Assembly: GCF_000372885.1 (NCBI RefSeq)
Contig: NZ_KB889967.1
Location: forward strand, 3,361,430-3,425,429
From: Methyloversatilis thermotolerans
GTDB taxonomy: Bacteria; Pseudomonadota; Gammaproteobacteria; Burkholderiales; Rhodocyclaceae
Length of the DNA: 64,000 nt
Direction: 5' to 3'
The notes under the pieces are model-generated. The model saw nothing but the letters and a program-made list of their open reading frames with translations. It had not been told where the DNA came from and ran no database searches. Positions 1-51,764 of the stretch are shown here, piece after piece (position 1 is the first letter of the stretch; every line of letters begins with the position of its first letter). Position numbers and translations under genes: made by a program.

Positions 1-472
1 CGCCCAGCATGGTGGTGACGCCGGACATGAGCGCCTCTTCGATCTGCTGCGGGCAGATGAAGTGGATGTGGCTGTCTATGCCGCCCGCGGTGACGATCAT
101 GCCTTCGCCGGCGATGATTTCGGTGCCGGGGCCGATCACGATGCCGACACCCGGCTGGATGTCCGGATTGCCGGCCTTGCCGAGGGCGGCGATGAAGCCG
201 TTCTTGATGCCGATGTCGGCCTTCACGACGCCCCAGTGATCGATGATGAGCGCATTCGTGATGACCGTATCCATCACGTCGGCGGCGCAGCGCTGGCTCT
301 GGCCCATGCCGTCGCGTATCACCTTGCCGCCGCCGAACTTCACCTCGTCGCCGTACACGGTGTAGTCGCGCTCGACTTCGACCCACAGCTCGGTGTCCGC
401 CAGCCGCAGGCGGTCGCCGGTGGTCGGGCCGAACATTTCCGCATAGGCCTGCCGGCTGATGCGTGTGCTCAT
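1..472 (-). CDS. ureC: Urease alpha subunit, N-terminal part (cut by window edge)
   Basis: Catalytic subunit of the nickel urease that splits urea into ammonia and carbamate in the cytoplasm. About 157 N-terminal residues of a protein usually near 570 are present; the rest lies left of the window. The segment shows the family N-terminus ([20 protein letters not shown]) and the first metal-ligand motif H-I-H at residues 135-137 within GGIDSHIHF. It is the last visible gene of a minus-strand operon ureD-ureA-orf-ureB-orf-ureC; ureE/F/G are expected beyond the edge. The start is the ATG at 470-472, 7 bases after the stop of the small gene upstream. Confidence 0.97.
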
Positions 473-22457: not shown

Positions 22458-22556
22458 CATCAGCGTGCGGGTCACCGCGCACCTGCCCGGACATGAGCAA
22501 GGGTTGAGGCGTGACGCGCACATATCGGTGTGCGGGTCGAACAGGAGGCAGACACG

Positions 22557-24089
22557 ATGCAGGACATCATCCGCAAGCTCGACGCAAAGCGCGACAAGGC
22601 CCGGCTGGGCGGCGGGCAGCGTCGTATCGAGGCGCAGCACGCGCGCGGCAAGCTCACTGCGCGCGAGCGCATCGAGGTGCTGCTGGACGAAGGCAGTTTC
22701 GAAGAGTGGGACATGTTCAAGGAGCATCGCTGCACCGATTTCGGCATGGCCGACGAATCGGTGCCGGGCGACGGTGTGGTGACCGGTTACGGCACCATCA
22801 ATGGCCGCCTCGTATTCGTGTTCTCGCAGGACTTCACGGTGTTCGGTGGTTCGCTGTCCGAGGCGCACGCCGAGAAGATATGCAAGGTGATGGATCAGGC
22901 GATGAAGGTCGGCGCGCCGGTGATCGGCCTCAATGACTCGGGCGGTGCGCGCATCCAGGAAGGCGTGGCGTCGCTCGGCGGCTATGCCGAGGTGTTCCAG
23001 CGCAATGTGATGGCCTCCGGCGTCATCCCGCAGATTTCGCTCATCATGGGGCCGTGCGCGGGCGGTGCCGTGTATTCGCCGTCCATGACCGACTTCATCT
23101 TCATGGTGCGCGATTCCAGCTACATGTTCGTCACGGGCCCGGAAGTGGTGAAGACGGTGACGCACGAGGAAGTGAGCGCCGAGGATCTGGGCGGCGCGAC
23201 CACCCACACGAGCAAGTCCGGCGTGGCCGACCTGGCCTTCGACAACGATGTCGACGCGCTCATGTACACGCGGCGCCTGTTCAACTACCTGCCGCTGTCC
23301 AATCGCGAGAAACCACCGGTCCGTCCGAGCAGCGACGCCGGGGACCGCCTCGACCCCAGCCTGGACACGCTGGTGCCGGCCAACGCGAACCAGCCCTACG
23401 ACATGAAGGAGCTCATCGTCAAGATGGTGGATGACGGCGACTTCTTCGAGATACAGCCGGACTACGCGAAGAACATCATTGTCGGCTTCGCCCGCATGGA
23501 AGGCAGCACGGTGGGCATCGTCGCCAACCAGCCGCTGGTGCTGGCGGGCTGCCTCGACATCAAGAGCTCGATCAAGGCGGCGCGTTTCGTGCGCTTCTGC
23601 GACGCCTTCAACATTCCGGTCATCACCCTGGTCGATGTGCCGGGCTTCATGCCGGGCACCGCACAGGAATATGGCGGAATCATCAAGCACGGCGCCAAGC
23701 TGCTGTACGCCTATGCCGAATGCACGGTACCCAAGGTGACCGTGATCACGCGCAAGGCCTATGGCGGCGCCTACGACGTGATGAGTTCCAAGCACCTGCG
23801 TGGCGACGTGAATTTCGCGTGGCCGAGCGCGGAAATCGCGGTGATGGGACCGAAGGGCGCGGTGGAAATCATCTTCCGCGACGAGAAGAACGATCCGCAA
23901 AAGATCGCCGCGCGCGAAGCCGAGTACCGCGAGAAGTTCGCCAACCCCTTCATTGCCGGCAAGCGCGGCTTCATCGACGACGTGATCATGCCGCGCGAGA
24001 CGCGCAAGCGCATCTGTCGTTCGCTGGCCATGCTGCGCGACAAGCAGATCGAGAACCCGTGGCGCAAGCACGGCAACATTCCGCTGTGA
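22557..24089 (+). CDS. pccB: Propionyl-CoA carboxylase beta chain (carboxyltransferase)
   Basis: Encodes 510 residues, the usual length. It transfers carboxyl from biotin to propionyl-CoA, forming (S)-methylmalonyl-CoA. The two crotonase-like halves show [40 protein letters not shown] in the N-half and [32 protein letters not shown] (in part), [10 protein letters not shown] in the C-half. The ATG follows AGGAGG; upstream in-frame codons are excluded by this site. Its partner pccA begins 588 bases downstream, an unusually long gap filled by tandem repeats. Confidence 0.96.
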
Positions 24090-24097
24090 GGCATGCA

Positions 24098-24138
24098 CCC
24101 TCACCCCCGACCCCTCTCCCGCTGATGCAGGAGAGGGG
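24098..24138 (+). repeat. REP-like dispersed palindrome, plus orientation
   Basis: Begins ACCCTCACCCCCGACC and continues into a perfect 9-bp stem, CCCCTCTCC (24111-24119) and GGAGAGGGG (24130-24138), with a 10-base loop. It is the same family as the element at 22413, inverted relative to it. It may also act as transcription terminator or RNA stabiliser for pccB, whose stop is 8 bases upstream. Confidence 0.6.
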
Positions 24139-24205
24139 AGTGGTGCGTGTTCGCTGCGCAATGCCATGACATGTTCCAGAACGTACGGATCGCAGGAGAC
24201 CTGCC

Positions 24206-24331
24206 ATGTTCAACAGGATGCTGATTGCCAACCGCGGCGCCTGGCAGCGCGGCCGCGCTGCGAACATCTCTTTTCGCCTGACACGCGCGGCGTGTGGAAT
24301 CGATCTCGCTGGGGAGGCTCGCCATGTCTGA
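24206..24331 (+). CDS. Repeat mini-ORF 1 (41 aa)
   Basis: ATG with AGGAGA upstream opens a 41-residue frame starting MFNRMLIANRGAWQRG, basic, no known domain. Its TGA (24329-24331) lies inside the second codon pair of mini-ORF 2, giving an 8-base overlap. The first ten residues imitate PccA; the rest do not. Translation is possible given the good ribosome binding site but unproven. Confidence 0.35.
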   Translation: MFNRMLIANRGAWQRGRAANISFRLTRAACGIDLAGEARHV

Positions 24332-24449
24332 CAGGATGCTGATCGCCAACCGCGGCGTGTGGCAGCGCGGTCGCGCTGCGAACATCCCTTTTCGCCTGAC
24401 ACGCGCGGCGTGTGGAATCGATTTCGCTGGGGAGGCTCGCCATGTCTGA
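24324..24449 (+). CDS. Repeat mini-ORF 2 (41 aa)
   Basis: Same length and layout as mini-ORF 1, starting MSDRMLIANRGVWQRG, with GGGGAGG ahead of the ATG. Because the unit is 118 bp (not a multiple of three) it is in the next frame, and its stop again overlaps the following start by 8 bases. It is the copy whose 18-bp palindrome has one central change. Confidence 0.35.
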   Translation: MSDRMLIANRGVWQRGRAANIPFRLTRAACGIDFAGEARHV

Positions 24450-24567
24450 CAGGATGCGGATCGCCAACCGCGGCGTCTGGCAGCGCGGCCGCGCTGCGAA
24501 CAACCCATTTCGCCTGACACGCGCGGCGTGTGGAATCGATCTCGCTGGGGAGGCTCGCCATGTCTGA
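24442..24567 (+). CDS. Repeat mini-ORF 3 (41 aa)
   Basis: Starts MSDRMRIANRGVWQRG; differs from its neighbours by Leu-to-Arg at residue 6 and Ile-Pro to Asn-Pro near residue 21. Ribosome binding site and 8-base overlap with the next start are kept. Confidence 0.35.
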   Translation: MSDRMRIANRGVWQRGRAANNPFRLTRAACGIDLAGEARHV

Positions 24568-24677
24568 CAGGATGCTGATCTCCAACCGCGGCGCCTGGCA
24601 GCGCGGCCGCGCTGCGAACAACCCATTTCGCCTGACACGCGAAGCGTGTGAAGGCGATCTCGCCGCGGGGAGCCACC

Positions 24678-24685
<8 letters not shown>
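24560..24685 (+). CDS. Repeat mini-ORF 4 (41 aa), overlapping the pccA start
   Basis: Starts MSDRMLISNRGAWQRG and ends REACEGDLAAGSHHV. Its TGA at 24683-24685 overlaps the first codons of pccA by 8 bases, so a ribosome finishing here could restart at pccA. The hairpin in this copy has a GAA loop (ACACGC-GAA-GCGTGT) with both stem arms unchanged. Confidence 0.35.
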
Positions 24686-26669
<1,984 letters not shown>

Positions 26670-47903: not shown

Positions 47904-47926
47904 CCCGCACCCCCTTAAGGTGCGGG
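47904..47926 (+). terminator. Hairpin after the cytochrome gene
   Basis: Perfect 8-bp stem CCCGCACC / GGTGCGGG with loop CCCTTAA, starting 14 bases after the cytochrome stop. It lacks a U run, so it may act as an RNA stabiliser or a weak terminator. Confidence 0.45.
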
Positions 47927-47937
47927 TCCGCGCCGAT

Positions 47938-47968
47938 TTGAGCCTCCAGCTTGCGGGCGCGTTATAAA
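47938..47968 (+). promoter_or_regulatory. Predicted metH promoter
   Basis: TTGAGC (47938-47943) and TATAAA (47963-47968), or TTATAA one base left, are spaced 18-19 bases. The AT-rich -10 stands out. Transcription would begin near 47975, directly ahead of the folded leader at 47977-48030. Confidence 0.45.
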
Positions 47969-47976
47969 TGCCGCTA

Positions 47977-48030
47977 AAGCGAGCTGCCCGACCCGTCAGC
48001 GCGCTTTCCGCGTTGGCGGGTTTCTCGCTT
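47977..48030 (+). ncRNA. Structured 5' leader of metH (unassigned)
   Basis: An outer 7-bp stem AAGCGAG / CTCGCTT (47977-47983 and 48024-48030) encloses an internal loop (8 and 3 bases) and an inner 12-bp stem, 47992-48003 with 48009-48020, closed by a 5-base loop; all 12 inner pairs form if G-U is allowed. I do not see the SAH riboswitch core (GAGGAGCGCUGC and GGCGCU) or a cobalamin B12 box. It may be a new cis element or a simple stabilising hairpin. Confidence 0.45.

Positions 48031-48080: not shown

Positions 48081-51764
<3,684 letters not shown>

Follow-up and report, generated by a model that had tools for sequence, protein, structure and literature searches.

A putative intercistronic leader of Burkholderiales biotin-carboxylase genes, present as four tandem units before pccA of Methyloversatilis thermotolerans

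Biotin carboxylases act in fatty-acid synthesis (accC), in propionate breakdown (pccA) and in leucine breakdown (mccA), and how the doses of carboxylase subunits are matched is an old question. In leader-peptide attenuators of the trp and erm type, a small leader ORF acts on a hairpin and thereby controls the downstream gene. The element that we describe here, located between pccB and pccA of Methyloversatilis thermotolerans, likewise places a small leader ORF and a hairpin before a gene, but it has no terminator-like site in a consensus scan, its leader mimics the gene itself, and no codon run or drug-stall motif was noticed. REP and MITE repeats are short, palindromic, patchy, variable in number and dispersed; our element shares the first four of these traits, but its strong matches lie at biotin-carboxylase starts and are not scattered.

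For the translational coupling of overlapping genes, the review PMC12548453 reports that the -8 spacing is enriched and names two models, RNA unfolding and termination-reinitiation. The same -8 stop/start overlap, structure at the downstream start and short distance occur at our locus; it differs in that the upstream frame, instead of being a normal gene, is a mini-ORF that copies the first 11 codons of the downstream gene and lies in a conserved structured unit. Synthetic short ORFs, engineered upstream of a target and encoding nonsense peptides, raise initiation at that target by bringing ribosomes (PMC13255528). Here, too, a short ORF lies just upstream of the target, but, unlike in those designs, the peptide begins with a conserved stretch and a covarying helix covers the start of the target. 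Searches of an open-licence literature library listed no description of such an element, two of them being broad and covered by the top of their listings, and Rfam gave no match over the array at gathering and none at E<=1 in six carrier loci. We file the element as a variant of translational-coupling leaders, one with neither an Rfam match nor a literature description that we could find.

The window, the whole stretch of 64,000 nt of the M. thermotolerans genome that was analysed, contains the array and its flanking genes as follows.

22530..24089, + strand: pccB-like carboxyltransferase gene, 5' of the array (ORF; best NCBIfam match mmdA, below cut-off, 800.8 vs 998.8 bits)
24171..24205, + strand: shortened, decayed start copy (MFQNVRIAGD...) 5' of unit 1, like a form in genus-mate G008 (L025)
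24206..24323, + strand: unit 1, with mini-ORF 24206-24331 (MFNRMLIANRG...) (ORF, pccA likeness, covariance-model match)
24324..24441, + strand: unit 2, with mini-ORF 24324-24449 (MSDRMLIANRG...) (ORF, pccA likeness, covariance-model match)
24442..24559, + strand: unit 3, with mini-ORF 24442-24567 (MSDRMRIANRG...) (ORF, pccA likeness, covariance-model match)
24560..24677, + strand: unit 4, adjoining pccA, with mini-ORF 24560-24685 (MSDRMLISNRG...), whose stop lies 8 nt into the pccA start (best own-genome model match, E 1.2e-15)
24678..26669, + strand: pccA-like biotin-carboxylase (alpha) subunit gene (ORF; NCBIfam PRK08591.1, 633 bits, above cut-off)

The four 118-nt units lie head to tail at 24206-24677, with pccB on the 5' side and pccA on the 3' side. 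TRF delimited the array as 24213-24711 (period 118, 4.2 copies, 91% matches, score 800), and in pairwise comparison the units were identical at 98-112 of 118 positions (83-95%). Every unit carries a ribosome binding site followed by ATG and eleven pccA-like codons, and in all four the likeness to pccA ends past codon 11 ('NRG'). Each holds a 41-codon frame whose TGA shares 8 nt with the following start, the last one with that of pccA (24678); the unit length departs from a multiple of three since each 126-nt frame reaches 8 nt into the next one. An earlier note on this DNA had described four tandem 118-bp units that imitate the pccA start, depart from it at the same codon and are chained by overlapping stops and starts, and on each of these points the array is real and as described. 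An assembly artefact, which the note had considered, is disfavoured because the four copies differ from one another and sit inside a 4.12-Mb contig. The note had also proposed a genome search for other copies: the good BLAST matches to the unit were those of the array only, with the next match at E 0.01, and a family covariance model gave four matches in this genome, all within the array, so neither method revealed a convincing further copy. Between pccB and the array, at window 24111-24138, we also observed a REP-like inverted repeat (cccctctcc ... ggagagggg).

The pcc gene names rest on context, because the mmdA match is below cut-off and the alpha subunit matches PRK08591.1, the model of the acetyl-CoA carboxylase biotin carboxylase subunit. 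Methylmalonyl-CoA mutase and MeaB genes, both exceeding their NCBIfam cut-offs, lie upstream. A consensus scan indicated no promoter or terminator in the pccB-pccA gap and 0 terminator-like hairpins with a T run at 24000-24900.

The pccB-pccA gap was compared among relatives, as the earlier note had suggested. In the genus, 11 of 13 gaps were readable, and the number of full units was zero in G001 and G010 (46-nt forms), G004 (67 nt) and G008 (start copies without an interior), one in G003, G005, G007, G009 and G012, two in G011 and four in the window genome. The 46- and 67-nt forms lack most of the interior, yet their frame still ends 8 nt inside the gene (+8). In the gap of G008 (L025), REP-like inverted repeats occupy the position of the unit interior. 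A further family sample comprised 80 selected stretches, of which 76 were analysable: in 45 of these the gap was <=30 nt, and 13 had one unit, 11 recognised by motif and two by eye (L160 and L169). Named carriers are Azoarcus sp. TTM-91 (L032), a Burkholderiales MAG (L050) and Curvibacter lanceolatus (L040), which has a second copy of the element before another carboxylase gene (L114); Acidovorax temperans (L038) has a degenerate element. The outcome was divided, in that the unit itself recurs, which argues against a functionless duplication, and its number varies within the genus (0, 1, 2, 4). Two relatives without the element (L048 and L142) have in this gap a small cysteine-rich ORF sharing a GDCCVFCSYG stretch. 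Others (L157, L168, L175, L194, L198 and more) have other inverted repeats of ~70-130 nt there, suggesting that the junction tolerates or attracts inserts.

A first covariance model was built from the interior only (copied codons excluded, up to the gene start) and matched 55 of 249 sampled family genomes at E<=0.01; since 194 of the 249 have no match, the element is dispensable. At E<=1.1e-6 it marked 71 places in the family, referred to here as strong matches. A second covariance model matched 25 of 399 genomes of the order and, among 369 genomes of the class, solely the window's own. For 66 of the 71 strong matches, a biotin-carboxylase start (pccA-, mccA- or accC-like) was present in the fetched stretch, the carboxylase motif having been sought anywhere in it, with most starts directly 3' of the unit. 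Of the other five, three were truncated at contig ends, a fourth was not fetched, and the fifth (L256) had no carboxylase coding. At L256 (G017:C20, contig end), the element and a start codon are followed by none, which may reflect a broken gene or an assembly join. Eight family matches were weak (E >1e-3): seven were read and none had a carboxylase start behind it, and the eighth lies on the opposite strand inside the accC start of L249, where it makes up 1 of the 72 rows of alignment A4 (model R2). All 24 order loci that were read precede a biotin-carboxylase start; the order locus L291 missed the motif filter and reads MFKKILIANRGEITCR.

Three operon contexts recur: pccB/pccA-like, enoyl-CoA-hydratase-like gene/mccA-like, and accB/accC, in which the unit is mostly 121 nt long. 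The labels pccA, mccA and accC come from motifs and the upstream gene, not from trees, and several rows labelled 'pccA?', in which the preceding gene is enoyl-CoA-hydratase-like, are probably mccA. Tandem pairs were found in G011, G102, G095, G105, G142, G150, G302 and G531, and four units is the largest number among the loci examined. In our best reading of these sequences, the unit appears to be a conserved intercistronic leader of Burkholderiales biotin-carboxylase genes. That it is a young tandem duplication without function, as the earlier note had allowed, or an artefact of assembly is extremely improbable: copy number does vary widely within the genus and the window units are 83-95% alike, but the unit recurs across the order before biotin-carboxylase genes, the four copies differ within their 4.12-Mb contig, and both covariation and codon constraint are present, as described below. 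This contradicts the idea for the unit and not for its number; the copy number in the window genome may be a young tandem duplication without function, and copy number as such may be neutral.

The unit next to pccA contains the following structural elements.

24598..24615, + strand: hairpin P1 of unit 4, an 18-nt palindrome in the genus (from the sequence)
24635..24649, + strand: hairpin P2 of unit 4 (6 of 6 pairs changed on both sides across relatives)
24653..24668, + strand: P3 5' arm, complementary to pccA nt 27-42 (complementarity, fold, covariation)
24704..24719, + strand: P3 3' arm, in pccA codons 9-14 (complementarity, fold, covariation)

The P3 5' arm is an exact 16-nt complement of its target in pccA (fold -52.6 kcal/mol, z -3.7), and the register of P1 in the genus differs from that of other carriers. 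Covariation amounted to 62 double-change cells in 25 sequences, compared with 17.8 when shuffled and <=11 when slid, and to 116 in 39 sequences, compared with 29.9 and <=22; the 116 include 17 and 9 double changes in a three-pair hairpin, P1b. In the 39-sequence set, an alignment (A5) of selected loci that excludes the window's genus, all six P2 pairs and 6 of 16 P3 pairs had double changes. Because row L297 of A5 comes from the leading unit of an array, the 3' arm in that row belongs to a start copy.

The P3 arm also suits its own gene better than those of other loci, at -40.0 vs -35.7 kcal/mol when swapped for 17 accC-like loci and -41.7 vs -37.3 kcal/mol for 35 others, with 0 of 5000 permutations in either set, figures that overstate independence because the loci are related. 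P3 is weaker at some loci (-29.8 in L252, -26.6 in L297). Within the window array, the inner arms gave -41.3, -38.7 and -41.3 against pccA and the last arm -48.6; in L030 the inner arm gave -38.8 and the last -52.4. Among the 8 arrays compared, the last arm gave the best fit to the gene in 4; the inner arm or arms fitted as well in 3 and better in 1 (L279/L300). Competition between start copy and gene for the P3 arm was rejected as the main switch, as the arm fits the gene better at 40 of 52 loci and the copy at 2, with 10 ties.

The predicted cost of opening positions -18..+15 was 18.6 kcal/mol at element-bearing gene starts (65 rows, 61 distinct loci), 10.6 kcal/mol at copied starts and 9.2 kcal/mol at 76 starts without the element; these controls are pccA-type only (46 family stretches, 30 named loci), and the element genes include accC and mccA. 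With the arm held single-stranded, the prediction for the gene start was 3.7 kcal/mol. For the window, the predicted costs were 21.9 kcal/mol at pccA and 9.4-14.5 kcal/mol at the copies. By prediction and covariation, the downstream start is closed by a structure lying in the path of upstream translation. The ribosome decoy that the earlier note had envisaged did not gain from this, for the copied starts are simply predicted to be more open than the real one.

The mini-ORF is usually 41-42 codons long and copies the first 11 codons of the enzyme. It was counted at 52 of 56 model-located loci (the start window missed L256, L272, L214 and the first unit of L216), and its start codon was kept in 52 of 52. 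The stop lies at +8 in 41 of the 52 and elsewhere in 11, between -18 and +19 and in some cases 5' of the gene start. Unit lengths of 1 mod 3 are favoured (45 of 52), yet the loci are related, and this carries little weight as a sign of selection on indels to preserve the frame, which we did not retain. Codon 2 is TTT in 45 and TTC in 6 of the real genes, compared with TTT in 19 and TTC in 29 of the copies (Fisher p 6e-7); in these sequences, the synonymous codon that makes the stop, TTT, is preferred where the stop is needed. A stop in the mini-ORF frame was found close behind the start in 56 of 65 element genes vs 14 of 76 others.

Between a copy and its own gene, 152 codons differ synonymously and 32 otherwise, a nonsynonymous share of 0.17 vs ~0.58 expected under a simple neutral model. 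For these counts and those of codon 2, copies were placed by the model and are free of the motif bias noted below. Between units of different loci, the copied codons changed 170, 169 and 1248 times at positions 1, 2 and 3; the corresponding interior counts were 178/217/226 in P1, 600/132/229 in the linker, 498/505/495 in P2 and 860/582/573 in the P3 arm. A third-position excess is absent from all four interior parts, on which ground we rejected the interior as a conserved protein, and the frame is therefore not kept as protein throughout. These patterns suggest that the first eleven codons are maintained for their peptide, being kept codon by codon, and the remainder for its RNA; recombination with working start copies of other genes could be the source of part of the codon pattern.

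The strong compensatory change in P2 and P1b with conserved loops, the occurrence in three carboxylase operon types and the interior without third-position excess would also fit a structured RNA whose small hairpins bind a protein or ligand, with P3 as a riboswitch-like or autogenous expression platform and the mini-ORF secondary. We consider this very unlikely, given that the start copy is conserved codon by codon, that the 46- and 67-nt genus forms keep a frame ending at +8 despite lacking most of the interior, and that Rfam has no match.

Another account is that the unit is a recombination-spread, partly selfish element whose terminal start copies serve as homology arms. It would pass from one paralogous biotin-carboxylase gene to another and from strain to strain, and precise deletion would remove it; the chief role of the start copy and the overlap would be to leave the host gene usable. 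The patchy presence of the unit and the 0, 1, 2 or 4 full units within the genus agree with this. Of seven genomes with elements at two genes, G215 has pccA and mccA elements that are sisters (0.91 identical, rank 1 both ways) and G013 has pccA and accC elements that rank first both ways, which likewise speaks for such copying; the other five were mixed or absent. Copy and own gene also change partly in concert, the copy resembling its own gene more than other genes of the same type (26.2 vs 23.6 of 30 nt) in a sample of 61 loci that favours conserved copies because they were chosen by motif. We nevertheless hold the account to be unlikely: no strong match lies off biotin-carboxylase genes but the broken context L256, the accC elements form a single clade, and a passenger needs neither arm-gene covariation nor codon constraint. 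Scatter of the REP/MITE type to unrelated sites was not found either, 66 of 71 strong matches being at biotin-carboxylase starts. Genome-wide homogenisation between paralogs was rejected, being clear only in G215 and suggestive in G013 among the 7 genomes. Plasmid-borne copies were rejected as well: the matches in 185 records each spanned no more than 80% of the query and, in the 15 hits listed, hardly reached past the carboxylase start. The patchiness, the changes in unit number and the sister elements of G215 suggest that carboxylase genes gain and lose the unit and pass copies of it to one another, and the start copies may be both a relic of recombination and a substrate for it.

Conservation, gene specificity, overlap, covariation and codon-level constraint of the start copy can be read directly from the alignments; from them we infer mini-ORF translation, melting, reinitiation, an effect on dosage and a mode of multiplication. 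The unit is likely a translational-coupling leader, in which ribosomes on the mini-ORF would open the hairpin and start the enzyme gene. P3, formed by the unit end and gene codons 9-14, is predicted to enclose the gene's ribosome binding site and start, so that direct entry of ribosomes there should be inefficient. The start of the mini-ORF, close to the end of the upstream gene, is predicted to be more open. A ribosome on the mini-ORF would cross and melt the P3 5' arm and stop on the codon that overlaps the gene start by 8 nt, where the same ribosome or a new 30S subunit could initiate. The mini-ORF probably has to be read before the hidden start of the enzyme is usable. The leader would make carboxylase synthesis depend on ribosomes coming from upstream and could set how much carboxylase is made per partner subunit. 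In the window genome, unequal crossing over between start copies probably multiplied the leader to its four linked units. Three features strengthen the translational relay that the earlier note had put forward: the conserved 8-nt overlap, the preference of real genes for TTT and the covarying hairpin that covers their start.

The copied peptide may, moreover, be sensed as a nascent chain. About 30 residues are held in the ribosome exit tunnel, and a mini-ORF of 41-42 codons would leave just the copied N-terminus (MFxKILIANRGDQ) outside when the ribosome reaches the overlapping stop. A binder of that N-terminus, such as free carboxylase, the partner subunit or a folding factor, could capture the exposed chain and alter release or reinitiation, so that synthesis would follow the amount of unassembled enzyme. 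If true, such a sensor would account for the codon-by-codon copy of the start, the freedom at the protein level elsewhere and the mostly held length. The 17- and 24-codon forms in genus-mates count against it, and we think it quite unlikely.

As a putative leader common to accC, pccA and mccA operon types across one order, the unit offers a concrete, testable device for setting subunit dose, and a single genus supplies natural variants that have zero, one, two or four full units. Gene finders can wrongly place the start of a gene in these operons at the mini-ORF. Two further features of the window were observed away from the array. Rfam 5' ureB sRNA matched at window 35-318 (125 bits), possibly as mere conserved urease coding sequence. 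A SAM_alpha (SAM-II) riboswitch match at window 47920-47998 (42.9 bits, above the gathering score) lies directly upstream of a 1227-aa ORF at 48081-51764, which by eye looks like the methionine synthase gene metH.
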